Part shown: positions 954 through 59,889 of the stretch, in pieces
Layout: each line of letters begins with the position of its first letter
How positions within the stretch are numbered: the first letter of the stretch is position 1
NCBI RefSeq assembly: GCF_000003815.2
Contig: NC_049979.1
Span: forward strand, 10,229,505 to 10,293,504
DNA from: Branchiostoma floridae
Taxonomy: Eukaryota > Chordata > Leptocardii > Amphioxiformes > Branchiostomatidae
Direction of reading: 5' to 3'
Length of the DNA: 64,000 nt
Translations under genes and position numbers: made by a program
Notes under the pieces: model-generated
What the model saw: only the letters and a program-made list of their open reading frames with translations
What the model was told of the DNA's origin: nothing
Database searches by the model: none

Positions 954-17776
<16,823 letters not shown>

Positions 17777-34300: not shown

Positions 34301-36981
34301 ACATGCTTGAACTAACGTATTCTTTTCTCTACTCCTGTCAGCACACATTCACCATGTATTTGAGAGGTTGAAGACTGGAGACCAGAGTGTCAAGGTTATA
34401 TGGATGCTCACTAGTAAGTTTAAAGTTGATGACCAGATTTATCCATTGTTATCATGAGGTTGTATAGATTCATGTTATACATGTAGGTTATAGAAAAAAG
34501 ATGCACCTTTCACAATTGTATCGGCAAATATCAGTCTAGACATTCACAATGAATCTGCTATTCTTAACTACCGGGTATCACACTATCACCCACTGAAGTC
34601 TAGTTGTTTTTTTAGACTGATATTTGCAGTTTAAGTAGATGTCTACCATGCCTTTGTATGTGTAAACCTTGGGTTGCTATAGGTAAAGTAAGTCACCTGT
34701 GTGTAACACGTTTTCCCCAATGTCTCCACAGTGTTCCAGTTTTCCTACACGACAGTGTTTGGGGCGTACACAGCCTTTCTGTTTGTCAGAACAGGTGGGT
34801 GGTCTCATATATAAGTACATGTACGTGGGTGGATCATACATCTTACATTCTGCCTTTTAATGTCAAGTGTGGTGGTCCTAATAGTCTAACACAGTTTCAA
34901 GATTTGCGTCATTGCTGGATTACTCATAACAACAGTAACTAGAGTTCCACGAACACATACCTTTGCCAAATAAACCAGGTTTGTTATGTAGAATGATGTC
35001 TGTAGACAAATGCGTTACTCATTTCATTTTCTTTATAATTAAATGCTTGGAGTTGGTTTATAAAATTTCGGCATTTATTATGCAAATTAGATCCCAATTT
35101 ACAATTAATTGATATCAAATTGTATCAAGCATTACTTAAGCTATCAGCATACAAAAAATCATGATGATCCTTTGATCCATTCTTGACTTATTCTCTTTCA
35201 AAGTCTTTAAATACACCTCTTACTCTCTTCCCTCTTTCTCAGTTACATATGTGACAACTTTGATGAAAGTACTATAATGGAATGCAGTGGATTTATGAAC
35301 TTTTCCTAACCAATTATGCAAATTAGCTGTTAACTTGCATAATAAGTATCACATTATATAAGTCTTCATTTAGGCTATCTACATGCCGAAAATCATGACG
35401 ATCCGTCAACACGTTAATATTTTCTCATTAATTATGCAAATGAGATCATCATTTGCATGATAAATATGTATTGACATTTCTCTCTTTCTCAGCTACATAT
35501 GTGACAAGTTTTAAAGCCCTATCATGGAATGCAGTGAATTTATAAAATATCCTCATTAATTATGCAAATTAGCTGTTGATTTGCATAATTGTTATCTCAT
35601 TATGTAGGTCTTCACTTACGCTACCTACATACAAAAAAACATGATGATCCGTCAACATGTTAATATTTTCTCATTAATTATGCAAATGAGGTGATCATTT
35701 GCATAATTGATATCTGTCGACATTTCTCTCCTTCCCAGCTACATATGTGACAAGTTTGAAAGTCCTATCATGGAATGTAGTGGATTTATAATTTTTCCTC
35801 ATTAATTATGAAAATTAGCTGCTGATTTGCATAATTAGTATACCATTATGTAAGTCATCACTCATTCTATCTACATACCAAAAATCATGACGATCCGTCA
35901 ACACGTTGTAGAGTTATTCTCATCCAAAGTTTGAAAGGAAACCGGCGCCTGCAGTTCCAAAAAAGCCGCTAGGGGGCCCAAACTCACAGCACTTACTCTC
36001 TTCCTCGAGGGCTATCTACCACTCAAAAATCATGATCACAGCATGTCCAGAACACGAGATATCAAAAATTGAGGTTCTGCTGCAGTACCTTAGCAAGCCG
36101 CTAGGGGGCCCATTATCGAACTTGACCTTCGTTTTCCCGACCCCTACCCACCTACCAAATATTATCGGGATCCATCCAAGACTTCTTGAGTTATGCTGTT
36201 AACACACACACACACAGACACACAGACTCACAAGCCCAAAACATAACCTTAGCCATTCTGGCAAAGGTAACAAGGAGCTTTCCTCTGCAGGGATGTAATT
36301 ACAAATTGGACTATTTCACTGAACTAGTGCCCTTGATCTAGTTATGATTTGAGGAGGAAATTACAAACTGCTTTAGCTGTGTTTAATAGCTAACAATGTG
36401 GCATTTTTTCAAGTCAGATTTTGGATAAATTGTTGGATTTTTGATGTGTTATTTAAACAGCCTCATTACTCATACTTTGGGTACCTACTGGCTGGCAAAA
36501 TACACCAGATGATTATTATTATTATTATTTAGATCCATCTGAGTAATTTTCTTTTATGTATACCGGTACTTTGAGTTTTATCCCATTAGCAAGAAGCCTC
36601 CATCTGTGACTACATTTTCAGTATGGGACACAATGTTTATCATGTTGTCTTTACATGTACATTGCTTATCTGTATCTGTATAGCCTGTATGAAGTTATTG
36701 AGTGAGGATACCGATAGTTTGCACTTAGCCTATCTTACAAATGAACTAGCATTGACGAGCCAACTTGTATTTCCTCAGGTCATTTGATTGGTCCCTACTT
36801 CTGCCATGCCTTCTGCAATGAGATGGGGTTTCCCAACTTCGCGGACGTTTTTACAGGGAGCAAACTCAGGGCAGTCCTCCTGTCTGTGCTGTATGTGGCA
36901 GGACTGGTGCTTTTCCTTGTATTCCTGTGGCCTGCTACACAAGCCTCTCTCTACAGCAACAGTACCTACAAGTGGACGTAA
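25310..36981 (+). CDS. RCE1: CAAX prenyl protease 2 (RCE1 endopeptidase), complete
   Basis: RCE1 is an ER membrane intramembrane glutamate protease that removes the -AAX tripeptide from prenylated Ras and other CAAX proteins before carboxymethylation. Exons: 25310-25422, 27325-27430, 28682-28762, 29139-29205, 33578-33636, 34014-34122, 34342-34413, 34732-34794, 36779-36981. All are GT/AG and in phase, totalling 290 residues (the human protein has about 329). Catalytic motifs are visible: [17 protein letters not shown] with paired Glu147-Glu148 and Arg152, FFGVAHIHH (about 175-183), and [13 protein letters not shown] with His233 and Asn237, the family HxxxN. Several hydrophobic helices surround them ([56 protein letters not shown]). 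Both termini are shorter than in the human protein. Introns 4 and 8 each contain one copy of the 1.3-kb repeat. Confidence 0.95.
28558..28590 (+). repeat. Short fragment of the 1.3-kb repeat's 5' end
   Basis: The sequence actagagttccatgacctttgcc matches the left end of the elements at 32151, 34939 and 57287 with a small deletion, then diverges. It looks like a truncated or decayed copy inside RCE1 intron 2. Confidence 0.45.
31187..31430. mobile_element. 244-bp foldback element in RCE1 intron 4
   Basis: A near-complete inverted repeat starts GATATAGGAGAATT and ends AATTGTCCTATATC. The arms include CCACAACCAGTGGGTACTTA, gtttcgatgtctctcagaca and agttctgcttctcgccgcta, mirrored on the right by tagcggtgagaagcagaact, tgtctgagagacatcgaaat and taagtacccactggttatgg. 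Only about 20-25 bp in the centre is unpaired. There is no open frame, so it is MITE-like or a foldback; it would form a long hairpin in pre-mRNA. Confidence 0.8.
32151..33460 (+). mobile_element. 1.3-kb interspersed repeat, copy 1 (RCE1 intron 4)
   Basis: It starts CTAGAGTTCCACGAACACA then TACCTTTGCCA, and ends with the inverse TGGCAAAGGTA. Inside are diverged tandem subunits with alternating attatgcaaat and atttgcataat, then two GCCGCTAGGGGGCCC boxes (33152 and 33283), then a microsatellite-like acacacagacagacacacag. Copies 2 and 3 at 34939 and 57287 have the same order and orientation. There is no transposase frame, which suggests a non-autonomous inverted-repeat element. Confidence 0.8.
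34939..36269 (+). mobile_element. 1.3-kb interspersed repeat, copy 2 (RCE1 intron 8)
   Basis: Very similar to copy 1 throughout, including the ends, the octamer-rich subunits, both GCCGCTAGGGGGCCC boxes (about 35964 and 36097) and the CA/GACA-rich tail. The left flank is ...acagtaa and the right flank is ...caagg. High identity to copy 1 suggests recent activity or local duplication. Confidence 0.8.
36455..36532 (+). repeat. 3' end of the 5S-derived SINE family with ATT tail
   Basis: The sequence cagcctcattactcatactt, tgggtacctactggctggca and aaatacaccagatg, ending in repeated ATT, is nearly identical to the reverse complement of 59628-59695. The head is missing. It lies in RCE1 intron 8. 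Confidence 0.7.
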
Positions 36982-38948: not shown

Positions 38949-38954
38949 TATAAG
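38949..38954 (+). promoter_or_regulatory. TATA box of unknown gene A
   Basis: TATAAG within cttataagaagccc lies about 30 bp before a plausible start. A non-coding first exon would run to 39076, where a GTAAGTG donor follows CCACCA. None of the three conserved enzyme genes here shows such a box, but the next unknown gene does. Confidence 0.55.
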
Positions 38955-39258
38955 AAGCCCGCCTCTGCTAGTGGCGCACATAAGACGAAGGTCCTGCTTT
39001 CGCCACAACGTCTAAAGACAACGGTCTGAAGAAAAACGTCTTTAACAGTCTTCAAGTCGAGTCGTGAACTCCACCAGTAAGTGTTTGAACCGTGTACTTC
39101 AGTTTTCCACAACTCTTGTGTTTTCACATCTTATCCTTCATATAAAACAGTGCAAGAAACATCCACCTGTGTGGCTGTTTGAGATGGATCTTTTGATGCA
39201 CATTTGAACCACCCAGGTCTGACGATGAGTAAAACGTTTGTTATCGTTTCAGAGAGCC

Positions 39259-42200
39259 ATGGCCAGGTGGCTTTTGGTCGCACTGATGACGGCCATGGTC
39301 GTGAGTAACAGCCTTGCCTCTCCCCCGGAGGGCGCCGACGCCTTCATACAGCCGGCCGACGTCTCCGAATATGCCGATCTCAAGGACGAATCGGCTGCTG
39401 CACCAGTTGACGTTATGGTTGAGCCACTGGTGAATATCGGAAAGGACATCGTCGCTGAAGCGGCTAAACCGAGACGCCACCCTTACGGGAATGACGCCAT
39501 GGGCGAACGCAAAGGTACGAATGATGAAATACTTAACTAGAGGAGAGTTCTGCACAGATAACTTTCAGGCCAGCAGAGAATTTCCTCTTGCACGTAGCCA
39601 TAGACCGTGTTATAGCTATAGCTGTATCTTTCCCCCTGTTGCTCCCTAATCCGGAGCTCTCTACTGGTCATAAAAACCTGCACCCAAAGGGTAATATTGC
39701 TAGAGGTGGGCGACCATGCAGTGCGCTGTCGTCTGTGACAACATGTCCCCGGGTTTCGACAGTTTCTACTATATTTTCAGTCTACAATGGTGTCCGATGG
39801 AGACAACCTTTACTCAGAAGTTGGACAAGTTATGTATGCCACAGTTAATTTCCCTTAGAAGCGCAATAGTCCAGGGGAGAAACCCAAAAATAAGCATCTC
39901 GTCGTGAGCACACCCCGTATACAATTAGTTCAGTTGCTAAGGAAACGATACTTCCATAGCAACGGAAAATATTGGATTCATCCATACATGAAGTAGTTGT
40001 AACTAATTTTCAATAAAGATAAAGCTGAAATTTGAATTGTATGCGCGATACCCATGATGTATTGGATTTCTGTAGTTTTACTCCAAATAAAGCAGCATTC
40101 ACGTAACGTGTGACATCGATCACACTTGAAGAAAGTCCCAAGCGACAGAAGAGAGTTTTTATTTTCTGCCCATAGCGTGTTTCTATGGCGAGCGTTGTTC
40201 TGAGAATCTCCTCATAAACTGCTGTCCGTATCAGAGTCAGTTCATCTGTCTGAGATAGAGAAGATCGAGTCGCCCTGGATGCCTGTCCTATCAGTTCTAT
40301 TACGTCATCCGGCCCAAGTGCATGTTAGAATTGAGCTTACAAGTTAAAGAAAATTGTCATGGCTTCATTGTTTTAATGCAACAAAACAGCAAATAGTGTC
40401 ACAGTTCCCTTATATTGATATGCTGAGTCATACTACTATATCTATTTTGCTACAAAATCTTTAAGGTACTCTTGTTTTAGATATGCCAATCAATTGTGCG
40501 AACACGAGAGTGTAGGGTTCCACCTCAGTACTCTTTCACCTATCTCAAGATATTGACAATACAAAGGACAATGGATATTTACGTAATACTGAGTTTTGAG
40601 TTATGTGTGCCTATAATGTACGAAGAAGAATGGAATAGCCTCCCTCGATCGTTTAATCATACCCATCGCCTTGTGCAAGAACGCGAATTAACCGAAACTA
40701 GGGCACAGCTGCGAAGAAATGTAAAAAAAAACTGTACTTGTGCATTTTGTTGGGGGAATCATACATGACCAAAATGTTTGGAAAACCTTCCCATGGCTGT
40801 TGCCTAAAATACACGCACGCGCGCCCAAGACTAAAGCTATGATACAGGATGTAATCGCAGTCTTGATGTCAAAATATGGGCGTAGCAAACATCCAAGCAG
40901 CAATTATATGAAAGCCGAGCCTGATATCCATCCTATTCTGACCCCAGTCCACTCTTCTGATCGCTTTCCGGCCGAAAATTTGCGATCAGAGGAGCGAACC
41001 GATGCAGGAAGACGGTGGATACCATGGCCAGGCTATTGACATTTGTAATACTTGCCGAACATGTTGAGGGGTAGTTCTTGATAAGATTGACATTTTGCTG
41101 ACATAACAGGGATCCCATATCGTCATATGCCATCCGATGACGCCCCGCTGAGCAGGCCTGTGGATGAGGAAAGCCGAAGGAGACTGGCAGCAGGGTGGGA
41201 CGACAAGGCGATCTCTACCAAGACGGGAGATCAACGTTTCAGCAAGACAGACGTGAAGAGGCCAAGACATAAGGATCCAAACAAGATGAAGCAAGGAGTC
41301 GATTATCCATCAGAATCGAAGCAATACCGAAATTCTCACACACAAGAGCTGAAGAAGCGGCCTACAACACTGGACGAAAAAATGATGAATGGAAAACGGC
41401 CCATGTCGTCCATAAATCAACAAAACCGTGACAGGGGAAAGGGGAGGGAATCACAACAGAGCAAACCACCCGTGCCCAAACCGAAGCCTTTCTTCACACA
41501 GTCCTCCAGCCGTCACTTGATAGATCGGGTTGATTCAGATAAAGAAAGGGTGGGAGCTATTCCAGAGAAGTGGCGGAAACGAGGTGGATTGAAACCTGAT
41601 GCACGGCCAACCCAGACTGGACGAGGAACAAAAGACCATGGTAGCGTTCATGGAGATGGTCAGGGGCGTGGAGATGGTCAGGGGCGTGGAGATGGTGAAG
41701 AGCGCGGAGTCGGTAAAGAGCGTGGAACTGTCCCAAAGCGTAGAGATGGCCAAGAGCGCCGAGCTGGTCAAGAGCGCGGAACTGGTCAAGATCGTGGAAC
41801 TGTCCCAAAGCGTGGAACTGGTCAAGATCGTGGAACTGTCCCAAAGCGTGGAACTGGTCAAGATCGTGGAACTGTCCCAAAGCGTGGAACTGGTCAAGAC
41901 CGTGGAACTGTCCCCAAGCGTGGAACAGTTGAAGAGCGTGGAACTGGCCCACGGGACTCGCGGAGTCGAGTTGGATCACAGCGTGATAAAAGGCCACCTA
42001 AAACCGATCCGAGAACAAACGAACCGGGCAACTGGCGCGATCGAATTGATAGATCATATATGGCCACGCTATATGGAGCGAATGAATGCCAGAAAGAACC
42101 ACGCAGCACGTACAAGTAACCATCATTCCAGGAATACGTATGCTACTCGACGCAAGTACAGGCCTGTTGATTGGGGTGGGAGGAAGCCAACGAACAGAAC

Positions 42201-45200
42201 AAGCAACATCTCTAGCCAGAGGGTAAGCTAACAGTGAATACAATACTCGTTTTACTATTTGTTATCACGGCAGCAAGTATCTAAATTAGGCAATGTTACA
42301 CATACCCATTTCATGGTTTTGAAAAGTAAGACAGAACTGATATGTTGAAAAGTAAGCGGAACTGTGAGTGTATGTGCATGACTTAGCGTGTAGATATGTG
42401 GATAAAAATTAAAAATTAATTTTTATCTAACCTCAACCTTACTAGCGGCATTTTCTCATAAAGGGGAAGTCAATTTCGCCATTTCAGATAATACCAATCA
42501 CTCTTGTATGTCCAGCGGTAAAGTTGGAATAATATGGGAATGTACCGATGCATAAAAATGTGTTACCTCTGTGTTCAAGTGAAGCCTCAACTTGTAGTAT
42601 CAATGTCGATGTTGATGTTTCCAAGCTAAAATACTGCTTTTAGACAGGAGTTGAATTTACATTCGTTTGTTCGCCGCTTACAGAAAGTACAGAGTGGGAA
42701 CCCGACAACAGCACGCGCACGGCAACAGTACCTGGAACGACAGCGGAACCGACAATCTCAGCAAAGGCTCAACAGAGTCAAGGCAAAGATTGAAAAAATA
42801 TTAAAGGCAGAGCCAGCCACATCGCCCCGAGCTAAACGTCTTCAGCGCCAGCTGAATCAAATCTACGATCTCTTGAAGAGACAGATTTTACAGGCTGAAA
42901 GGCCGGCCAATAGCACCGTGGCGCGAGGACAGGGAAGACCAACAACCAACGCGTCTGGCGTTTCCAACGACTCTCCACGGGTGCCAACGCAGCGGCCGAG
43001 GAACAGACGATCATCTGACGTAAGTGACACAATGTACCATCTCTTCCAGAGAAGCTATCCCTTCAGGTCTTGCGCTTGTTTTCTTTTATGCAATACTTCT
43101 GCTTATCGGGACAATCAACATTCACGCCATGAGGATGATGCCAACATACACGTAGGCATGGTTTCAACATTTACATTGTTCACATTTATATTCAAATGAA
43201 AATGATTCTGTAGATTTGACTACGAACTCGCCTGGAGTCCAGTCTTGTTTTCTTTACACTCGTTCTCTTTGAAATGTAAAAAAAGGCATTTTTTGGTCGA
43301 AACATAAATCGGCTTTATTTTCGGTGAAAACTACCTGGTTGTTTAGGAAAATTCCTCTTTTAATCATAGCCAATAAATGGCAACTTATTATTTTCTGTCC
43401 CATTGGTAATGTATTACAGGGCAGGTAACAAATGTTACCGGTAACGTTTGTTACAACAGTAGACTTTACCCTGTTTTTTTTTCGAAAGGACTTACATTAA
43501 TGACTACAACATGCAGGTATAAGTGGACATCCCTAGGGACATTTAAAAAGTGGGCAGCTTATTTATACCAGGTCAAATAGAAAGCTTAGACAGCATCGAA
43601 CAATAGTAACATGTTACAGTAATTTCTGTACAACATTTTGTTAAGCAAGGTGGGATACAAATGGCAGTCAACAACACTTTCTTGTTTCTTTAGAAAGCCA
43701 GAAAAACTGTACAGCGTTAAAAAAACGGTCATTTCTAGTCTTATACGTGGACAATATAACCGTGGCAACCATCGTACTCGTGGTGGTAACGTTTGTTACA
43801 GAATCTGGCGACAGGCATAAACCACCTCACACAGCTTCCAAGATCAGTGACAGTAGCGACCTGACGTGATCGGGCAAAGGGCCTGGGTGGCTGGTTTTAC
43901 CTGCCGACAATCATTCTGTGAACTGAATTATTACATTTGGGGCTACTATTTGAATTCTTCGTGTCTTCTCAGGCGACAGCCAATTTCTATTGAGTAAAAT
44001 CCCACCCGTGGCTATGATAATCTTCCAAGCCATCAACCAATATGAATGTTGTATCTTTTGTAAAACACTACAGGGATTGTGGAAAAACGAAGGAACTAGT
44101 GATTTTTTTGTGAAATTTTCTGCATATCAAGTCGCAAAGGCAGGCGACAGCATTTTTTACATTTAAATGAGAATGAGCCTTTCGTCCGCTCCCGAAGGTC
44201 GCTATCCCACCGACAACAAAGTAGCGACCTTCGGGAGCGGACTAAAGCGAACAAGGCTGGATTCCAGGATACCTACGAACATGACAAACATTCAGCATGT
44301 CCTGTCGTATTGGTTATACACCGCCATCAGCGAACAGTCCTTTCGTCAGGCCTAAGATAGATATCCATTACAATACCATGTTGCAGAGGTAAGTTATTTG
44401 AAATTTTATTACCTCCATGAAATGTCATGGAATGGAGGTTATATTTTCTGTTATGTGTCTCTGTCTGTGTAGATGATTACTCAAGAACGGCTGGATGGAT
44501 TGGTTTCATACTTGTTGTGTTGGTGGGGTGTGATGAAAGCTCGAATCGATGAGATTTTGGGAGCCGTATCTGTCGTTATAATTGATGTAATAATATCAGA
44601 AATCACCCCTATATTTGAGATATTTTGGTACAGGCATCGTGCTTTATGTGTTTGTTAATGGGCTTAGCTCCAAGCAGATGGTGAGGTGACAGCTGTTTGG
44701 GGAACCCCGAGTTTTTTTAATATGATAATTAGTTTTATTTATGTCTGCTAAGGATATCATGGAGATGTGAAGCGTAAATATAATTGTAAGAAGTTGAGGT
44801 ACATTTAACGATAATGCTTAACAGGTATGGATGTCTCACATACTGTACTGCTGATTTGAGTGACATGGTGATTAAAATGCCATTAGGTCCTCTCATCTGG
44901 GTTGGGTGTCAGAAGTTTTACGGGCGATACAGATGTTCTGATTTTGTTACGATAAGGGACAGTTGTTAGTTGTCTCTTTCGTAGCCAATGGTACTTGTTT
45001 TTTAGCAGACGGGGTTGGCGCCAAGTATTCATCTTACAGTTGGTGTAGGGCTGTCAGAGGAAAGTGTGCATCTCGTTTTTGTACCGTGTGAACAGCTGAT
45101 GTTATGACATATTGGTGGAAAATCAAATCACCATCTGACTAAAGTTGGCCACATCCCTTCTTCTTTCTGAGTTTCCCAACTTCCTCCCACCACACAGCTC

Positions 45201-48200
45201 TGAGGCACATAGTCGAACCTCAATAATGCTGACAACCTTAGACATTTTAAATGCCAAACATCAAGCTTAAGGAACACCACGCTACCATATGCCGTCGACC
45301 TCTTAAACGCACATTACACAATTAAGTGTCACATTTTGATAATTACTAATCAGATGGACATCCTCTGTGTCATTAAATAAATACACCACTACTTTCCCAT
45401 AACATTTATATTATATAACCATTACTCTCAAATACAACCGACTATAAACATACATACCATCCACAAAAAAGCAATAAATATTTCATGGAGGTATGAGGTC
45501 CCCGAACTCTAGTTGTGATGTTCTTACATCAACATTGTCAGATATCGCCATCGGCGTCAGCAACATGTCAAATTTATGTTGGACAAAATGTCGACTCTGT
45601 CTTACGAATACAACTTTCTTTGAAACAATAGAGTAGTCTATTTTCAATTTTTTAAGACTCTTGTGTGGTATGGTAAGATTCATTTATTCTTTTCTTACAG
45701 AGAACGAGGCCGGCACCACAACAGTGGCGGCGTGGACGACAGTCATACACAAGTCTCAACAGGTTGAAGGAGAGGATTGAAAAACTTCTGAAGACAGACT
45801 CCGGAACATCGCCCCGATCTACACGTTACCAGGAAAAGCTCGAGCGCATCTACGCATTTCTGAAGAGGCAATTTCTGCTCTTCGAGAAGTCGGCCAAGAG
45901 TAGAGCTGCCATGTATGGACGGGAAACGTCGGGAAATAGCACGTCTAGTGCTTCAAATGGCACTACACGGACGCAACTTTCAAGGAGCAAACGGTCGTCT
46001 GAAGTTCGTCCCTTTGCGAGGACCTTAGAGGTCATGTCCGAGGCCATGTCCAGCCTGCTTGGGGTACGTGCAATTTTGTACATTACATATCACTGGTTTG
46101 CTGTTAATTGATGTTTGAAGGTGAAAAGGGACTATTAGTTTTTTTTTTTTTAGTGTTTGCTACTCTTCCTGGGGAGGAAAAAGGTAATGCAAAACATTAC
46201 AGTCAACGTACATCTCCTACAATGAGTTGATTTTACTAATGTTTATCAGAACGGTTGGCTATAAATCTGGAAATGTTGACGGTATGACCGACATTGCCGG
46301 TCTTGACACCTCTAGAAAAGTGTTCAAATCATTCACTATCTTATGCTTACAGAAGAGACTACAACAACAGCAACGGGAACGCCCAGTGGACCCAAGGCGT
46401 GATTTTACCAACAGAGACATGGCAAGTAAACAACGGCAACGGGGACAATTTTCAAGTCTCAACAACAGGAAGGCGAAGCTTGAAAAAATGTTAAGGACGG
46501 ACTCTCAAAGCAGCACGTCGCCCCTATTTGAACGTCTTCAGGAAAGGTTCCAGCACATCTACTCACTTATGAAGAGACTGCCGCTCATGAATGCTCACGA
46601 ACAGTCAAAAACCAGCGAATCTGGGTCGCAGCTTTCGAGGAATAAACGATCGACAAAGTACGACCATTTTCAGAGAAACAACCTTTTCCCATCTGACATG
46701 CGTGATTTTGTCAACAGAGCTATGCAAGCATCAATCAGGGCAATGAAGAGGCTACCATCGAGCTATGATCAACAATATTCAAAGAATGAACTTCCTAGTC
46801 CGTATGGAAAGGGGGTTCCAGAGGGTGTCGTCAGTAGATTGAGTGTGCAGTTAAAACCACAGCCTCCATTTTCCTTGGTAGACACCAGGAGTGGATACGA
46901 CAGCCCCGATGTGAACCAACTAGCGACGATTGAGACGTTGGTGAAGCAAACGGAGCACGATCTAGAAAGGTTGGAGAAAACTATCGACAAGTCAGAGAAA
47001 CTCGGCACTTATTTCCATGACAATAGCATTACGAAATCAATGGACACTGCTCGCGACGCGATGCACAAACACATCGCTTCCATCCATCAAACCATCATGA
47101 CCATTCTCGATCCAAGTGATGATGAGAAGGAGGAGATGGAGGAAGACTACTATGACGACGAACTAGAGGAAGATATCGACAGTGTCGACGACGACGACGA
47201 CGACTACCAAGATGATGAAAACGACAACCATGACGAAGATGGCGACGATGGCGACTATGACGGCAGGGGTGATAATGACGGTGACGACGACAGTGGCGAT
47301 GAAGACGACAGTTATGATGATGACAAAGACGACAGTGACAATGACGAAGACGGCATTGATGATGATGATGATGGCAGTTATGATGATGACGAAGATGTCG
47401 ATGGTGAAGACGACCTTGATGACGGGGAAGAAGAAAGTGATGACTATGACGAGATCGACGAAGATGATGACAGTGTCGGAGGAGATTTCGACGAAGATGT
47501 CAGTAATGAAGAGGATGAGGATGACTATGATGATTACTATGAAGAGGAAAGTGATGGAAATGAAGAGGAAGACGAAAATTATGACAACGAAAGCGTCTAT
47601 AGTGACACTGACGACAAGGATGCACTGGTGCAGAAGCTTATTTTCAAATTCAGATCTGGCCTACAAGGTCTTACTACCGTCGTGGATGATCTTGAAAGCC
47701 AGGTCAATCCACAGCAAAACATCAGTGCTGGCAATCTGGAAGACCTGAACGCAACTTCACCGCAAACTCTTCCTACCGACAAACAGTTCCCTCCACCGCC
47801 TCCATTTAGGGAACCTGACAGAAAATATCAGCTACAAGGACCAGAGGCCTGGGAAAGGGGTCGCAGAGTCTTGAATGCTGTGAAGTCCTACGTCTGTGGT
47901 AGGGTTGACACTGAACACCCTGTTATCGGTAGGTTCTGTGACAAAGATATACCGTCCATGGCCCCTTTCAAATTGCTTCGCAGCCGCGATGACTGGAGAA
48001 AGTGGGTTGGCGTGTATTTCCGCATGATGAAAATGTCAGAAGAAACAGCAATTGCAGAGATCCAACAGTTAGAGGCAGCCGGCTTACTGACTACACAGCA
48101 CCTGCTTGACATGTTCCTCAGTACACCTATCACAGTTCGAGCCATGGAACAGGTCTCCCGCAGCCACGGCGTCCCGGTAGAGCAACTCCGTGAACAGCTG

Positions 48201-49229
48201 CGAAGTGGTCAGGTCGACATTCAGACCGTCAACGATATCCTGCTTTATATGAAGAAGGAAGCCTACAGGTCGTTCACTATACACACTTTAAACAACAAAG
48301 TCACATTGGAAGAGAGCAATGATGACCTGACAAAGATAACAGAGGACAAGTCCAAGTTCCCAGACAACCGTGAACAAGAAGTCGGCGAAGAAAATCTTGT
48401 TGACCTAGAATCTGAGCCGAACAGGAATAGAGAATTACCAGAAGAATTTCAACCAGACGAAATCGAAACAGAACTCCAGATGGACAATGGGATTGACGGT
48501 GAAGCACTCCTAGAAATTCCCAATTCGGAAGTTGTGTTGGAGGCGGAGTTGGAAGGCCAGGAGATGGGCGATGAGGACGAATATCCGGAGTTTGAACCTG
48601 TGCCGGAAGACGAGCTTGACGATCCTGCTTACACGTTACAACCAATGGAGGATGCTACGCAAATACTTGGACAAATTGAGGAGGAGCTGGAGGAACTGGG
48701 GCTGAACTTTGACGTGGATGACGAGAAAGAGTCGGAGTTTGAAAAGTTGAAACCCATCTTCGGAAGTGGTGTAGCCCAACCGGAAACAGCTGACAAACTG
48801 AAGAACTTTGCGTCGCTGTTGCAAAAACGTCAGGTTTCCCTGCGAAAGCCCGAATATCGTTTCAACATCAAGAAAGTCGCGGATACATTCCTGGACGTCT
48901 CCGAGGCGCGGCGCGTGGCCCATCGTAGCAATGCTGGAGAGGAAAAGGCCAGCTCTGCCGTTCAGGGACCAACCATGATCGCCGTGGTTGCAGCAGTGAC
49001 TGGGGCAGCCGTGTTCGTCGTCATCATTGGAGTGATGCTGAAAGTCAGGTGTGTTATAGACACTACATGGATACCGCAGAGAGTAAAATAACGTTTAGAT
49101 AAGAGCATCTTGTTGTGACATCGCTTATCTGTTATAGAGCTTATGTTTTTGTTTTCTCTTTGTCGCAGATTCAGGCAGTCTCGCCGCGAAGGCAAAACCA
49201 CCCTACCGGCCACCAACCTTGACATCTAG
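39259..49229 (+). CDS. Unrecognised secreted/type I membrane protein A: triplicated module and Asp-rich tract
   Basis: I do not recognise this gene. Exons: non-coding ending 39076, then coding 39253(ATG 39259)-39514, 41110-42222, 42684-43019, 45701-46063, 46353-49048, 49169-49229. The signal peptide is MARWLLVALMTAMVVSNSLA. Exon 41110-42222 is Arg/Lys/Gly-rich with 12-residue repeats. The next three exons each carry a homologous helical module (KIEKLLKT...SP...IYxFLKRQ) followed by a basic site (RNRRSS, RSKRSS, RNKRST) like a furin-type cleavage site. The giant exon then has an Asp/Glu tract (47104-47620), a conserved-looking block with two Cys (WERGRRVLNAVKSYVCGRVD, about 47800-48300), an acidic tail, and a transmembrane helix IAVVAAVTGAAVFVVIIGVM. 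The last exon encodes a short basic tail ending ATNLDI. N-glycosylation sites occur (NST, NGT). The reading frame does not close across 41110-42222 (see findings), so the model there is uncertain. AATAAA is at 49422. Confidence 0.72.
39541..41109 (+). other. Intron 2 of gene A
   Basis: No further exon was found. If the donor at 39515 were not used, translation would stop after a few codons (TNDEILN), and an AATAAA at about 40011 could serve a short read-through transcript encoding only the signal peptide and about 70 more residues. This is possible but unsupported. Confidence 0.4.
41718..41940 (+). repeat. 36-bp coding minisatellite in gene A
   Basis: Imperfect short units lead into about four near-perfect 36-bp units (GTGQDRGTVPKR in the frame entered from the upstream splice site, VKIVELSQSVEL in another). 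Because the unit is a multiple of three and lacks stops, several frames including antisense ones stay open. It sits in exon 41110-42222. Confidence 0.85.
42684..43019 (+). other. Gene A module exon 1 of 3
   Basis: 336 nt, phase 0 at both ends, acceptor CTTACAG. Encodes a Gln/Arg-rich start, then LNRVKAKIEKILKAEPATSP, RAKRLQRQLNQIYDLLKRQ, a low-complexity Asn/Thr stretch and NRRSSD just before the donor. Aligns by eye with the exons at 45701 and 46353 in order, spacing and borders. Confidence 0.8.
43424..43799. repeat. Segment bounded by GTAACAAATGTTACC / GGTAACGTTTGTTAC
   Basis: A 30-bp imperfect palindrome at 43424-43455 is formed by the two 15-mers back to back. The second 15-mer recurs exactly at 43785-43799. 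This could be a small inverted-repeat element of about 376 bp or two insertions in tandem. There is no coding capacity. Confidence 0.4.
44179..44247. repeat. Hairpin with 26-bp arms and 17-nt loop
   Basis: CCGCTCCCGAAGGTCGCTA on the left pairs with TAGCGACCTTCGGGAGCGG on the right; the full 26-bp arms differ at one position. It is GC-rich in an AT-rich intron. It could be an insertion remnant or a structured RNA element. Confidence 0.7.
44410..45493. mobile_element. 1.08-kb element with TACCTCCATGAAAT inverted ends
   Basis: The left end TACCTCCATGAAAT at 44410 and the right end ATTTCATGGAGGTA at 45480-45493 are perfect inverted repeats. After the left end, ggttatattttctgttatgt, gtctctgtctgtg and tactcaagaacggctggatg resemble the reverse complement of the right end of the 1.3-kb repeat family. 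No transposase frame is seen. Confidence 0.7.
45701..46063 (+). other. Gene A module exon 2 of 3
   Basis: 363 nt, phase 0 at both ends, acceptor CTTACAG. Encodes LNRLKERIEKLLKTDSGTSP and STRYQEKLERIYAFLKRQ, a Ser/Thr/Asn-rich linker with NST and NGT sites, and RSKRSSEV. It is a clear internal duplicate of the exon at 42684. Confidence 0.82.
46353..46660 (+). other. Gene A module 3 of 3 (start of giant exon)
   Basis: The first 300 nt of exon 46353-49048 repeat the module: LNNRKAKLEKMLRTDSQSST, then FERLQERFQHIYSLMKRL, then RNKRSTK. The same CTTACAG acceptor and phase 0 are used. The exon then continues into unique sequence, so the third copy is fused to the rest of the protein. Confidence 0.78.
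47104..47620 (+). other. Asp/Glu-rich low-complexity tract in gene A
   Basis: About 170 residues composed almost only of Asp, Glu, Ser, Tyr, Gly and Asn (for example DSVDDDDDDYQDDENDN). The DNA is GAT/GAC-rich, but codons alternate and acidic identity is kept across many unit changes, so selection for charge is likely rather than simple slippage. Such tracts in lumenal or extracellular proteins bind calcium with low affinity and high capacity; that role is inferred here. Confidence 0.8.
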
Positions 49230-49429
49230 TTTCCCCGATATTGATGAAGATGATCAGAGCAGATCCAGTATCCATATGACGCCATGTTTAATTTCGGCAT
49301 TCTTCTTCATATCTCTCTGCATGGATCGTTCCTTTAGATGACATTTTTTTTTCGAAAGTGCAACTATTCTAGATGTAAGCACTATTTAGCAGCCTCTTTG
49401 AAACGTACACGCGTAAAGGTTAATAAACA

Positions 49430-50764
49430 CGATGCATAAACACAACTTTAGCGTTGTCGTCACCCTTGTCATGTGTACATGTTGATATTGCAACGAATGT
49501 AACATGGAGTACACACTGTTGCATGTAGTACTGGTCCCTTAGAGACCTGGGTTGTAGCTGAAAAACCATTTCAGCCAGGCATTTCTTTAAAACTATGCGA
49601 CAACTTAGAACCCAAAGATATGCTGTTTTATCTTAACATTGAAATATTTCGGACTGATCACTGATTCATTGCAACGAAGGCGCGATAATCTCCTGTGCGG
49701 AGAAAACTCTTCGGTTCACACATTCTTCTTCCTCGTTTTGAGACAAGCATGTACAAGGCCGCGTCCTTGCCCTTACAACGCCCTTATCCTCATCTCCGTC
49801 CGAAGACCTCTTAATCTTTTTTTGAAAACGGCCTTTTTGTAATGAGTGTTTGTTCCTCCCAGGTAATACCGTTTTAAAGGTCTTCCGTCATTACATTGAC
49901 AAGGGTTTTCAAACTTACCAAAAACAACTCGGTACGCGAGATTATCCAATGTCGGGCGTGACGCAGGCGTTCCTTTACATCAATTTGCGTGCGTCATAGT
50001 GTGGGAATGTGTAGTTTGAATTTCAGCACAACAACTTTTCAGGGGAAAAGAGGGGCTAAAAGGATTTAGAGTGTTTATGGGTGAGTGTTTCTTTGTTTTT
50101 GACGTTGTGTTGAAATTCAAATCAGCCATTCCCACGGTCTGACGCATGCAAACTAATGTAAAGGAATTCCATTGCATCTTATGATAAAATGATGGTCAAC
50201 TGTGCTAAAAATTGCATTTTGAACTTAGTTGCTATTGCATGAATAACATTCATCCTGATACCATGTTTCTAACCACATGTTTTTAACCCGCTTCGTTAAA
50301 CGCGATGCGTTCTGCGCATAACTTGAAATTGAGACGACAGACAAATGGTAAATACGGGAAAACCGTTGATGCATTCATTTGATAAAACTGACATATACAG
50401 CTGGTAACGATATCACCGTTTGCGAACAAATACGTACTTGTGGTAATCCTCATTCTTTCCTTTTATTTTCATTCTCTGCACTTTAAAATTCTTCGTGCCG
50501 TAACATACGTTTAAGATGGTCTTCTCGTTTCACTTGCATGCCCCGTGCAACTTAACGAGCTAATGGTATTAAAAAAAAGAATTTTAGATGCAGGAAAGGA
50601 TGACGTCGTCTTAAGTGAGACTGACGCACTTTTGGCACTTGATCCCAGCAGAACCTGAACATCTAATTACAATTATATTGTCGAGAAACATCCACAAACA
50701 TAATAGTAAAAAATTAGATTAAACGGTATTGTGCTCTTACACGTACCAAGCAAAACAACATGCT
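49430..50764. other. Intergenic region between unknown genes A and B
   Basis: About 1.3 kb, AT-rich, without a supportable coding segment or RNA gene. Its right end carries the promoter of gene B. Confidence 0.5.
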
Positions 50765-50772
50765 TATAAAAA
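50765..50772 (+). promoter_or_regulatory. TATA box of unknown gene B
   Basis: TATAAAAA lies about 28-30 bp upstream of a CAGTC-type start near 50795 and about 115 bp before the ATG at 50885. No intron is needed in the 5' UTR. Confidence 0.7.
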
Positions 50773-50884
50773 TGCGCGGAAAGTTCAGTCCCACAGCACT
50801 CTCTGACAAACAACCTGCCTCGTCGTTACCAGCACCAACAAACAGTTTTTGCAGAGCTTACAGAGCTCCAAAGAGGCCGCACCG

Positions 50885-53800
50885 ATGGCATCCCGGACAC
50901 AGCTGTGTCTTGTCCTGCTGCTTCTGGCGGGGATGATGACCTCCAGTGAAGCATGGCGGACACGGAAGACATCAGGCAAGACAAGCACCAGCACTGGCAC
51001 CACCGAGGAGGAGACTGACAACGCTTTGGCCGCTATGCAGCAGATGTTCGAGTCCGCGAAGGGACGTTTGCCGGAGGACCTGGAATCCAGAATTGGTGGA
51101 GGGGGTAATCGACAGCCTGCCCCTGACGCCCCGGAGGTACAAGATTTGTTCTCAGATAGACATTGCAAAATATATTCTTTGCGTAAAAGTTCTGATTGTG
51201 GAACGACTTATGAATATGTTTGTGAAAACCTCGTTTATGTGTTTTCCCCTCTTTTCTCTGTCATCTTCTCAGACCTCTGTGACGGAGAATCAGGAGCAAG
51301 ACGCGCCAGAAGGTGGGTTATATAACGTTGACTGTTGCTTTTTCTTTTAAAAACTCGCAGTGTGGTAGTGTTTGAGTCCTGTCGTAAAGAAAGGTCAGAA
51401 AAGACATAGTCCTACGATTCTTGCCTTTTATTACAAATCTTGTATAGTAACCAGGGACATCATATATCTTGGTTACTATCTGTACTGCACGATTTTCTTC
51501 TTTATGGCGGCATTTTAGCATATCATTTTGTTTGATAACAGCTCAAAGTCGACGGAAGACAGGAGGGTTTCAGATGGAGAACATCTTTTCTAACATCGGT
51601 GACAAAGCTGCAGAGAAACTGCAGAACCTTCAACCATCCGGAACGTATTCCACAGGCTTTGACGGTAATTTCATGGTGAGAGAATCCCTCCCTCTGCTTA
51701 AGATGTTACGCTAGATATTGTCGGTTGTGTGGAGAAGGGTCGTGAACTGGTAATATTTGCAGGAGGCGTTTTCAGAAATTGGTAATATGAAGCTTAAATC
51801 AGTTGAACTTTGCTCTGCTCTACTTGACTGCAACAATAGATTTGTTTCGTTTTTTTGGTGGTTCAAAGTCTCTCTTTCACCTCAACTTCCCTAATGTAGC
51901 GAACAATGTAAGAGAACACTACGGTAGCTAAGTTCCTTAAAACAATAGGGAATGATGGATGCCGATTTTTGTATTGTACCGGACATGCGTCTTATACAAT
52001 AAGAATCATATATCCCGGTTGTATTCCCAGGAGGCTATGAAAGAGCGGTTCCAAGATTTGGCAGACGGAGGAATAGCAACAGGTGCACGGCAGAAACAAG
52101 AAGAACGGAGGCCGTCGGAGGAGGAAAGGGGAGGCTCTGCTGGACGTCAGCAACAGGAAGAACGCAGGCCGTCGGAGGAGGAAAGAGGAGGCTCTGCTGG
52201 ACGACAGCAACAGGAAGAACGGAGGCCGTCGGAGGAGGAAAGGGGAGGCTCTGCTGGACGACAGCAACAGGAAGAACGGAGGCCGTCGGAGGAGGAAAGG
52301 GGAGGCTCTGCTGGACGACAGCAACAGGAAGAACGGAGGCCGTCGGAGGAGGAAAGGGGAGGCTCTGCTGGACGACAGCAACAGGAAGAACGCAGGCCGT
52401 CGGAGGAGGAACGTGGAGGCTCTGCTGGACGACAGCAACAGGAAGAACGCAGGCCGTCGGAGGAGGAAAGGGGAGGCTCTGCTGGACGACAGCAACAGGA
52501 AGAACGGAGGCCGTCGGAGGAGGAAAGGGGAGGCTCTGCTGGACGACAGCAACTGGAAGAACGCAGGCCGTCGGAGGAGGAAAGGGGAGGCTCTGCTGGA
52601 CGACAGCAACAGGAAGATCGGAGGCCGTCGGAGGAGGAAAGAGGAGGCTCTGCTGGACGACAGCAACAGGAAGAACGGAGGCCGTCGGAGGAGGAAAGAG
52701 GAGGCTCTGCTGGACGACAACAACAGGAAGAACGGAGGCCGTCGGAGGAGGAAAGGGGAGGCTCTGCTGGACGACAGCAACAGGAAGAACGGAGGCCGTC
52801 GGAGGAGGAAAGGGGAGGCTCTGCTGCACGGCAGAGACAGGAAGAACGGGCACATCGGAGGCCGTTGAAGGAGGAAATGGAAGGCTCTGCTTCAGAAGAG
52901 GAAACAGAAGTCGACGAATCCACGCAGGAGGAAATTGAACAAATTGAGGAATCCGTCCAAGAGGCAAATGAACACATGGAGCAAATGGAGCAAACTCTCC
53001 AAGAGGAAATAGAACAACTGCAGCAAGCCGCACAAGAGGAAAGGGAACAGACGGAGCAAGCCGTACATGAGGAAATGGAACAAATGGAGCAGGCCGTACA
53101 TGAGGAAATGGCACAAATGGTGCATGAGCTAGAAGAGGAAGTCGGACACGAGGAAAGTGTTCAAGACGAACAGGTGCTGGAAACTGCAGAAACCGCACTC
53201 ACTGATGAGGAAAGGGAAGCAATGTTGCAATCCGTCCATGACCAGGTCAGTGAGGGTATAGAAAAACAGGTGTATGAAGCTATGTTTAATGTACTTGTGC
53301 CAGAAGACAGCACAGTGGAAGAGCCAGAGGAGGAAGTATTGAGTCGAAGCGTCAGGGCAGCACCAAACAAGAAGGGCCGTGTGGAAACCGGTGAAGAAGA
53401 TGTGGATGGAGACACAAAGGGCAAACGGCGTAATAATATCAAAAAGGGAGGTTCGGCTGATGGTTTGGTCAATGATGAATATTTCCTCAGCCCCGACCAC
53501 CCCAGAAACAGAAAGCAAGAGAACGGCAAAGACGAGGACGACAAGGAAATGTCAGGAGACGGATCGGGCAGTGGCAGTGGTGACGGAGAAGGCAAGGCGT
53601 ACGGGCGGGAGAAGGCTGGAGGCCAAGGGAAGCCTGAAGGCAAAGGCAAGCCTGAAGGCAAAGGCAAGCCTGAAGGTAAAGGGAAGCCTGAAGGCAAAGG
53701 AAAGGCTGCAGAGAAGGGCAAGGCTGGAGAGAAGGGCAAGGCTGCAGAGAAGGGCAAGGCTCAAGGCAAAGCAAAATGGTGGGAGAGAAGCGAGGCGGAG

Positions 53801-54737
53801 AAAGAACTTGAAGTCGAAAAGGAGAAAGAGATGCAGAAAGCAGTTAAAGGAGAGATGAAACAATTGGTCAAGAATTTGATTATGGAATCCCTGAGTGAAA
53901 TTACGGAGGAGGAACAAGATGGAGAGACAGTGGAAGGGCAAAAGAAGAAGCCTGATACAGAAGAAATAAAATCTGCTTTGGCAGATATCAAGGCAAAGAT
54001 GGGGAAAGGCAAGGGCAGCAAAGGAAAACAGGCAACGGCCACCGAAACCGAAGAGGAAGAAGTTGTAGATGCGGGGGAAAAAGAGAGCCGGCTGCAGAAG
54101 ATGCGGCAGCAGCTTTTGAGTCGAAAGGGCAGGGAGGCGACCTTGGGAGAGTCTTCTTCAGAGGCCAAGGACCTAAGCAACCTGCAGGGCTCCAGCATCG
54201 CCGTGCTTGTAGCTGGAACCGCCATGCTGCTGCTCGCCGTGGGACTGATGGTGCAGAACAGGAGGATGGTCAGGTGAGGATAGAAACTCCTGCCACTGTC
54301 TGTTCTCAGTAAGGCCTACGTCACATTTCCAAACTGGGGCCCGGCCGGGCTGTTTCGAAAATTAATATTTTTGCCAATAAATATGCACAAGGCATGCTGT
54401 TGAATTATTTTTGGTCTGTCTTATGTTTTTGTTGTTTTTTAAATCGTACTTTCCGTTCCCCCAAACTGCCCGGCCGGCCTCTGTGGAAATGTGACGTTAG
54501 CCTTCGTAGATAGTTGTACCGGCAACCAATCATAGCAAAATATCTTGAATATCAATTACCACATGTTTATTCCTGTTGGTCTCATTGCTTCTTTCACATA
54601 CTTTCTTGCTAACTGGGTTCAAAACTTTGCCCAACAGCGCCATCCTCCAGGGTGACAGCCACATCCCCGGGCGCGTGAGCTCGGAGTGGGCGGCTGAGGC
54701 AGGCGCAGTGCCCGGCAAGGCCTTCCACGTCCAGTAA
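50885..54737 (+). CDS. Unrecognised type I membrane protein B: 19-residue repeats, coiled coil, Ser-Gly cluster
   Basis: I do not recognise this gene. Exons: 50885-51136, 51273-51312, 51542-51675, 52031-54273, 54638-54737, all in phase, 922 residues. The signal peptide is MASRTQLCLVLLLLAGMMTS with SEA following. Residues about 166-412 are thirteen copies of EERRPSEEERGGSAGRQQQ. Residues about 437-560 are a Glu/Gln-rich coiled coil (EEIEQIEESVQEANEHMEQM). A basic site RSVRAA precedes a Lys/Gly-rich region with MSGDGSGSGSGDGEG (about 649-664) and GKPEGK repeats (about 672-724). The transmembrane helix IAVLVAGTAMLLLAVGLMV (about 864-884) is followed by QNRRMVR and a 33-residue tail on the last exon ending FHVQ. 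It follows gene A in the same direction and shares its overall plan, so I infer a related or co-functional pair. AATAAA is at 55425. It is not similar to any family I can name. Confidence 0.82.
52100..52840 (+). repeat. 57-bp coding minisatellite, 13 units, in gene B
   Basis: Thirteen tandem 57-bp units encode EERRPSEEERGGSAGRQQQ with very few substitutions (units 8, 10 and 13 carry coding changes). The high identity implies recent expansion or gene conversion. The unit has no stop in five of the six frames, so long spurious frames appear on both strands here. Confidence 0.95.
53620..53775 (+). repeat. 18-bp coding repeats (GKPEGK / EKGKA) in gene B
   Basis: Four GKPEGK-type units are followed by AEKGKA/GEKGKA units, forming a strongly basic segment next to the Ser-Gly cluster. 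It is a second, independent short-period coding repeat in the same exon. Confidence 0.8.
54310..54505. repeat. 195-bp foldback in the last intron of gene B
   Basis: The left arm AAGGCCTACGTCACATTTCC, then ggggcccggccgggc, is mirrored by gcccggccggcc and GGAAATGTGACGTTAGCCTT. The arms are about 45 bp with a few mismatches. It lies between donor 54274 and acceptor 54637. A MITE-like insertion is likely. Confidence 0.7.
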
Positions 54738-56820
54738 GCTACGGACCTGACGGACCGACCAGCAACCAAACACATCGGACAAACGGACCAACACAATTTC
54801 AATTCTGATAGTAAGAACGAGAATCTAGTTACCCTCTAGTCTCTTACATAGTCTCATCTAACAATCCTGTGTCAAGAAAACAGGGTCGTCATATATTTCA
54901 TTCAACTAGCAGCAAAGACTTTTTCAAAATTGAACATCCTGAGATTTGCAACTATATCCTCAATGCCATGTAACACCTGGCACAATTATCGTAACTGTTA
55001 CATATAAATACTGTCCTAAATCACGAGACGGATATGATGTGTTTGTTGAAAAGCGCGGATTACGGACAACGAATCGGAATCATTTTGTCGTGTGCTGTGA
55101 TCTAAGTCAAACGTACTAGTTTCTTATTAAATGCTTCGCTGTGTGCGGAAGAGCTTCCAAATCGCTATTTTGTTCATGCTACTTTGGCAACTTGTATTCA
55201 TTCGTCGCAACTGCACTAATTGTAACAAACGCAGACCCATGAAGTAGTGATCTGCCCTGCGATATTTCCTGTTCTTCATGCCATCTGAGGCACTGGAATG
55301 TTCGTCGGGATGTGTTGTTGTGTAGAACGAGATGCTTTGTGAGTAAACTCCTGATGCTTTTGCTTCCTTGAACCCTGTCATACATTTGCTATTTGTGTTG
55401 GTTGTACCTGCGACACACGTGTGTAATAAACATATATCATCACATCAAGTTGTCTCAAGTTGCCTTATATTTGTTCAGGCGTTTCATAGGGGTACCCAGG
55501 CCTAGGGCAGCTAGTTTCCTTGATGGTCAGTCAGTAGCAGGGTATATTTTCCTTTCTATTCAAAGTAACCAATGCACCTCCCATTGTATGTTCCAATGGA
55601 AATGCCCTACCCCATGACCCAGGATTAGAACATGGCTCTTTCAGTTACAAGCTAATTGGAACCAAGCCAGTTTGATACTTGTCTCCCACGAAAAAACACA
55701 TTTAACTAGAAGGATCACATTCTTTCCTAGAAATCCAGCCAGAAATCTTCCCCGAATTTCAATTTTGCCAGAAAATAACATTCCAGTGGCGGGTAGGTAC
55801 CTCCCCCGTGTACCCCCCCCCCCCCCCCAATGTGTGATGTACAAAGGATAAGTCTGTAAGCTAACCATTTCATGACGGTTCTAGTAGGACCGTAAAAGAT
55901 GCAAAGACAAGTCCGCATCAACTAATACTTCTGAACGATGAAAATGTGTTGTTATTATTAGGAATTAAGGCAAGACAAAATTTAGGTTGCTAGAACGAAA
56001 TATAGCCTGTTTAATCGCGCTCCTAGTGACCAGTCTGACTGACCAGATTTAATAGCAACTGGCAGCGGTAGCCTGTGGCTAGACTAGTATATTGCAGATC
56101 GATAGAAAGTTGAAAACAAGCAGTGTAAGAAGCAGACTGTCAATCTGATGTAAAAAAACGTCGTTTGTAAGATGCCTTATTCAGCCGACATCCAATAACG
56201 AAAATTTTTGGCCTTACTTGCTCAGTCTTTGCCACGCTTACTTTCCCTGGTACATTCTCCTTAAACCCCGTTGTTGCACCCCAGTAAAGGCATGCACTGA
56301 TATCCGTCGAGTAGGTTTGCTCTACATGAACAGTGCTCTATCAAACACCCCAGACATTTGTCCCAACGGGGTCCAACCTTCTCAGGCAATTATTGGATGA
56401 TTAGTAAACATTATGCGATGACGACAGTTGCCGCGTTTTCAATCCATCCTTTGTGCTCCGTTAATCTCCATGTTTTGGGAAACAATTTCTGCTTTCTCAC
56501 GGTGTGACGAACGTCGATAAATTGATAAAGGTTCTTTCCGTTGTTATTCTGTAGTGGTGGGAACGGTTTTCTCTATGTCTAAGCCTGGGTACGTGTATTA
56601 TTTTACTCAATGGTCAACGCGTAACAAGACCCGATGGTCACCTCAATGTATGACTTGAAGTCCACTACAGGGTTACTGGTCACATAGGATGTCAATAACA
56701 TGTCTTTTTCCTAGGTCGATAACGTCATGAGACGACTTCACTAACAGTGAGGATTAACTGACCGAAATATGAGACACAGGGGTTACAAAAGCTGCTAGGG
56801 AAATTCCCTGCTCCATTTAG
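54738..56820. other. Gene B 3' UTR and repeat-free intergenic DNA
   Basis: The 3' UTR of gene B probably runs to the AATAAA at 55425. A run of about 17 C lies at about 55815-55830. No coding segment was supported. Confidence 0.5.
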
Positions 56821-59611: not shown

Positions 59612-59889
59612 ACAATAATAATAATAATAATAATCTGGTGTATTTTGCCAGCCAGTAGGTACCCAAAGTATGAGTAATGAGGCTGTTTAACGTGGTCGAG
59701 GCACCTCCTCGAGCACGGGACCCCCGTTTTACGTCCCTCCCGGAAGACGATTTCGTGGAAAACTTCGTGAGGCTACAGCAATCCGGACGTCCTTGGTTGG
59801 TCCCCCATCCAAGCACTATCCGGACCGCGCGTTGCTTAACTTCCGAGATCGAGGGATCGGGTGTACCAACGCGCCACGCGGCCGTAGCA
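59612..59889 (-). repeat. SINE with full-length 5S rRNA-like head and ATT tail
   Basis: Read on the minus strand, 59889-59770 (120 nt) follows 5S rRNA: gctacggcc start, acccgat, GATCTCGGAAGTTAAGCA, gtgcttggatgggggacc and a gctgtagcc end. These include the internal pol III promoter regions. A unique body follows (gtaaaacgggggtcccgtgc, cagcctcattactcatactt, ggtacctactggctgg), then (ATT)n at 59634-59612. This is the architecture of SINE3-class elements. Body fragments recur at 23630 and 36455. Confidence 0.85.

Follow-up and report, generated by a model that had tools for sequence, protein, structure and literature searches.

Two neighbouring genes on the plus strand, here called gene 1 and gene 2, look real and may both encode membrane-tethered, convertase-cut secretory precursors of type I, built of charge blocks and yielding highly charged material, a reading that we hold with somewhat less than even confidence. 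Each predicted protein has a signal-like start, then a long charged part, and near its C terminus a single membrane helix ahead of a short tail. Within a basic region some 500 residues long, the gene 1 product carries three exon-encoded modules with a predicted helix-turn-helix; after each of them come a linker and an R-x-[KR]-R-S-[ST] site, and the chain continues with the acidic block, the helical domain and the anchor. Furin-like convertases would cut behind each module and free the basic helical modules from the acidic membrane-bound remainder, and attraction between the opposite charges could hold these products in a condensed granule or a surface matrix. A second polyelectrolyte of that compartment may come from gene 2, whose product has a charged repeat, a coil rich in Glu and a run of Ser-Gly to which glycosaminoglycan could be attached. 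We infer the cutting, the condensation and the compartment of both products from the predicted proteins.

Both genes lie in a 64-kb window, which is the whole stretch of DNA that was analysed (positions 10229505-10293504), and the genome-wide searches were run over 513,431,437 bases in 431 contigs. The features of gene 1 are the following.

38949-49427, plus strand: gene 1 as a whole, from the TATA-like box through the polyadenylation signal
38949..38954, plus strand: candidate TATA-like box of gene 1, TATAAG, from a motif search
38975..39076, plus strand: exon 1, 5' UTR, with an approximate start inferred from the TATA-like box and a donor GTAAGT at 39077 read by eye
39259..39514, plus strand: coding part of exon 2, with the ATG at 39259 and a signal-like hydrophobic start
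41110..41549, plus strand: exon 3 of the intact model, spliced in phase 0 at donor 41550
41657..41947, plus strand: 18-bp tandem array, intronic in the intact model, of doubtful coding status
42684..43019, plus strand: exon 4, module copy 1, end RNRR-SSD
45701..46063, plus strand: exon 5, module copy 2, RSKR-SSE
46353..49048, plus strand (2,696 bp): exon 6, with module copy 3 (RNKR-ST), acidic block, helical domain and transmembrane helix
47796..48320, plus strand: helical non-repeat domain, single copy in the genome, no significant family
49169..49229, plus strand: exon 7, short cytoplasmic tail and stop
49422..49427, plus strand: polyadenylation signal AATAAA after gene 1, from a motif search

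Exons 2, 4, 5, 6 and 7 were clear in the exon models, with GT-AG borders, and exons 4 and 5 were symmetrical (phase 0-0). Residues 1-23 were hydrophobic, and the plan given in the preliminary description (hydrophobic start, one large exon, a single C-terminal hydrophobic segment and a short tail) was recovered.

A helical module, overlooked by the earlier reader, is encoded three times in diverged form: in exon 4, in exon 5 and at the start of exon 6. When copy 2 was compared by tblastn within the window, it matched copy 1 with 46% identity (E 3e-16) and copy 3 with 37% identity (E 7e-10), and in the whole genome, where 4 candidates were scored, these three places in gene 1 were the only ones found at E up to 0.001. 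Every copy ends in the convertase-like R-x-[KR]-R-S-[ST], as RNRR-SSD, RSKR-SSE and RNKR-ST, respectively. Within the 380 residues that open exons 4-7, this motif was counted three times, a number reached in none of 20000 shuffles, whereas R-x-[KR]-R alone was not in significant excess in gene 1 (4 versus a shuffle mean of 1.79, reached by 196 of 2000 shuffles). As the module copies share ancestry, the retention of the site amid a diverging linker is a better argument than the motif count: in an ungapped comparison that rests on very few columns, the residues identical in all three copies were 3/6 in the site block, 1/16 in the linker and 16/43 in the helix block. Because the copies are not independent, the three cutting sites could have been inherited through exon duplication. 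R-x-[KR]-R was absent from the gene 2 protein, which has 26 dibasic pairs.

The linkers of two of the three copies carry N-glycosylation sequons. An AlphaFold model of the module, made from the three-row alignment, consisted of two long helices, a short turn and a third helix (8-32, 38-72 and 103-120) and was of low confidence (mean pLDDT 58.7, pTM 0.32). When six hand-picked module helices were compared with shuffles for amphipathicity, two gave values below 0.05 and two more below 0.08, the others being 0.19 and 0.55.

The same sites would be read otherwise if gene 1 were a membrane-anchored precursor of the peptide-hormone kind, in which cuts at RSKR and at G-KR would free an amidated peptide of 22 residues, with a second peptide after RNKR. 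The last residue of exon 5 is the G of this possible amidation signal, so that G-KR spans the border between exons 5 and 6, and the second candidate lies in exon 6. The stretch from RSKR through G was amphipathic (a fraction of 0.005 of 2000 shuffles was as strong), and a stretch flanked by RNKR and KR does come after module copy 3; however, this second stretch was less amphipathic (fraction 0.138), dissimilar and without the G, and module copy 1 has no such peptide. The two G-basic-basic signals in exons 4-7 were also near chance (shuffle mean 0.9). The size and membrane anchor of gene 1 are unusual among neuropeptide precursors, and we consider a hormone precursor decidedly unlikely. A further proposal is that gene 1 is the founder of a family specific to its lineage: a cationic helical module, present in three exon-duplicated copies, would share a membrane tether with its own acidic neutralising block and be set free by convertases. 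The modules would then serve as antimicrobial or matrix-condensing effectors, or an amidated peptide hormone would lie between them; this proposal we regard as unlikely.

The preferred reading, that of tethered charge-block precursors, draws on the charge distribution of the 1,383-aa model of gene 1, in which the net charge was +66 over residues 101-600 and -98 over residues 701-900. The acidic block, which comes after the basic part, has 164 residues and is 62% Asp+Glu. By parts, the net charge was -88 for gene 1 exons 4-7, +28 for the exon 2-3 reading of gene 1 and -65 for gene 2, and dibasic pairs numbered 21 in exons 4-7 and 18 in the exon 2-3 reading.

An Asp/Glu-rich luminal block is also a property of calsequestrin and the histidine-rich calcium-binding protein. 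Both genes might be likened to such calcium-buffering luminal proteins of muscle or secretory reticulum, for which the acidic block of gene 1 and the single membrane helix would speak. We judge this very unlikely, as the convertase-like sites of gene 1 suggest passage beyond the ER, gene 2 has no acidic block as strong as that of gene 1, and homology to calsequestrin or the histidine-rich protein was found neither in Pfam (seven pieces of both genes) nor in the PDB (gene 1 exon 6).

The preliminary description had taken the 18-bp array of gene 1 as coding, which was not confirmed. Read through the array, the signal-peptide frame is broken by a TAA at 42117-42119, and the intact model splices the array out. 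Departures from the repeat unit fell evenly on the codon positions of that frame (19/22/21), in a test blurred by two alternating unit types, and synonymous changes followed the neutral expectation in two frames and came near it in the third. The donor that scored best there (42223, score 8.8) is compatible with the later exons only if another frame is read, whereas donor 41550 shares phase 0 with exon 4 and gives the intact protein; it scores 5.9, and the range for eight accepted-exon donors is 3.5 to 11.2. Contrary to an intronic array, a codon score trained on the remaining exons preferred the second open frame across it, with the best switch at 41615, although this score is partly driven by amino-acid composition; such a switch would fit an indel or an allele rather than an intron. 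On the sequence as assembled, the array would be intron rather than protein and its coding reading is doubtful, while the exon 3 model from donor 41550 is uncertain. At this place the assembly may contain an indel, the allele may be frame-shifted or there may be an additional exon; two hand-derived alternatives were also considered, namely an exon 3b beginning at acceptor 41928 and a micro-intron with its donor at 41713.

The frame conflict that arises when exon 3 is read to donor 42223, the preference of the codon score for the other frame and the low-complexity stretches would all be expected if both genes were fast-drifting orphans with little selected function, gene 1 perhaps being a decaying or frame-shifted allele. 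We find this quite unlikely, given the intact splice model of gene 1, the conservation of the module core among its copies and an intact gene 2 with a codon-position-3 bias in its array. The features of gene 2 are the following.

50765-55430, plus strand: gene 2 as a whole, from the TATA-like box through the polyadenylation signal
50765..50772, plus strand: candidate TATA-like box of gene 2, TATAAAAA, from a motif search
50885..51136, plus strand: coding part of exon 1, signal-like hydrophobic start
51273..51312, plus strand: exon 2, from the exon model
51542..51675, plus strand: exon 3, from the exon model
52031..54273, plus strand (2,243 bp): exon 4, with 19-aa repeat array, Glu-rich coil, Ser-Gly run, Lys-Gly repeats and transmembrane helix
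52087..52849, plus strand: 57-bp coding array, 13.4 copies, from a tandem repeat search and codon-position test
54638..54737, plus strand: exon 5, cytoplasmic tail and stop
55425..55430, plus strand: polyadenylation signal AATAAA after gene 2, from a motif search

The five exons have GT-AG borders and form a single intact frame of 922 aa. As described before, gene 2 has a hydrophobic start, a large exon, one C-terminal hydrophobic segment and a tail. Over 13 copies of its 57-bp array, departures by codon position were 2/2/13; since 13 of the 17 fall at position 3, the array is taken as coding, in agreement with the preliminary description. The Ser-Gly run holds four close SG in an acidic context (SGDGSGSGSGDGEG), as would be expected of a candidate proteoglycan core. 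An idea that the genes encode Fam20C-type phosphoproteins was rejected, as S-x-E was not in excess in gene 2 (17 versus 13.9 expected, 211 of 1000 shuffles) or in gene 1 exons 4-7 (3 versus 9.5 expected).

Such a Ser-Gly run, the coding tandem repeats of gene 2 and the N-glycosylation sequons of gene 1 would also suit components of a surface proteoglycan, a mucus layer or an egg coat, shed or retained at the cell surface. This is possible for both genes, if rather improbable: no adhesion, mucin, ZP or matrix domain of Pfam was found in the seven pieces scanned, and cysteine is almost lacking in both proteins (two in gene 1 exons 4-7, one in the exon 2-3 reading and one in gene 2), a scarcity in which they are unlike gel-forming mucins and ZP proteins.

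That the genes form a tandem pair held in so far as they are neighbours on the same strand with a similar layout, but their relatedness is weak. Homology over the whole length was dropped, the full-length BLASTP comparison giving an E of 2.8. A C-terminal score of 48 between the two proteins was reached by 35 of 2000 shuffles that kept the membrane segment, and in both genes the last intron is in phase 2, just past the membrane helix. The link of gene 2 to gene 1 rests on layout and this weak C-terminal similarity, which would at most suggest a related pair.

Beside the module, the genome copy searches covered the stretches named here. They gave no second copy of the gene 1 C-terminus and did not retrieve gene 2 with it. 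Second copies were likewise not found in the genome for gene 1 exon 3 before the array, for the gene 2 N-terminus or, at E up to 10, for the domain at 47796-48320. Besides its own locus, the C-terminal half of gene 2 gave six weak matches, each with an E of at least 0.02, which we ascribe to low complexity. Seven query pieces had no match at E up to 1 in the flanking sequences L013-L015, which reach about 20 kb beyond the window on the downstream side and 10 kb on the upstream side.

The earlier statement that neither gene can be assigned to a named family was supported for the stretches searched. No Pfam family scored above the cut-off in seven pieces of both genes, which excluded the gene 2 array and the short last exons. 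The PDB comparison covered gene 1 exon 6 (best E 0.11), its domain (best E 0.83) and the module profile (no match), and no significant match was found. For the non-repeat part around 47800-48300, singled out earlier for a profile check and searched as 47796-48320, the best Pfam match was the tape-measure-like PF20155 (18.1 bits versus a cut-off of 41, E 0.0023), which was rejected as a chance helical similarity. A single-sequence model of this domain, with a mean pLDDT of 63.1, showed eight helices and two strands.

Among known systems, granins (chromogranin/secretogranin) are acidic, low-complexity, multibasic secretory precursors that are not known to have a membrane helix and are thought to condense in granules. 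Both genes resemble them in the signal-like start and in many dibasic pairs, and gene 1 exons 4-7 and gene 2 also in acidity; in contrast to granins, each gene has a C-terminal hydrophobic segment, gene 1 has tandem helical modules, and no granin profile was matched in Pfam at E up to 1 with the seven pieces. A furin-shed membrane-anchored precursor is exemplified by TWEAK (PMC3870272). Gene 1 would share with such precursors a convertase-like site that separates the membrane anchor from the part to be released, but would differ in having three sites behind three modules and a C-terminal anchor, and no cytokine domain was found in it. Calsequestrin and the histidine-rich calcium-binding protein, like gene 1, have the Asp/Glu-rich block, and differ from the two genes in giving no sequence match, in the convertase-like sites of gene 1 and in the want of a comparable block in gene 2. 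No gene of this kind was named in the titles and abstract openings surveyed, which does not by itself show its absence from print. If confirmed, charge-block precursors of this sort would be an undescribed design, probably of a basal chordate, in which basic repeat modules and their acidic counterpart are joined in one membrane-tethered processed chain, and would offer a concrete handle on secretory or surface systems possibly private to the lineage; if not, these would be two ordinary orphan low-complexity secretory genes.

The surroundings of the pair had been described as conserved enzyme genes, and this was found on the upstream side, where pieces of a tubulin-tyrosine-ligase-family gene lie on the minus strand and a phospholipase/carboxylesterase (Abhydrolase_2) and an Rce1-like CAAX protease on the plus strand (family matches at E up to 0.01); presumably these are TTLL5, LYPLAL1 and RCE1. 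On the gene 2 side inside the window, the single piece tried (59674-59976) matched nothing. Ten flank pieces were chosen by eye from scored ORF lists (566 flank ORFs of at least 40 aa in the window), and the neighbour annotation is for this reason incomplete; matches at E up to 0.01 were obtained for five of the ten, of which two were TTL and one was an EF-hand gene in L014 (5717-6154), about 15 kb downstream of the window. L014 also holds a further repetitive open stretch at 2887-3502, with more than one frame open.

The TATA boxes described for both genes are present as motifs, but they lend weak support, such motifs being common in the 64 kb, where the plus strand has 38 TATAAA, 11 TATAAG and nine TATAWAAR. 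A bacterial-type promoter scan was disregarded as inapplicable to this genome. The 12-base word AGAAACATCCAC is common to gene 1 intron 1 (39155) and the upstream region of gene 2 (50684), a post hoc find that may be due to chance. G+C-rich tandem repeats of the GATCTCGCCCCCCC type occur in opposite orientations at 56835-56950 and 59299-59331. Arrays of a 246-bp tandem unit were found around the Rce1-like gene, at 32414-33093, 35228-35907 and 57622-58297; two of the three are equal in length and score, and the unit is perhaps a satellite or a transposon-borne repeat.
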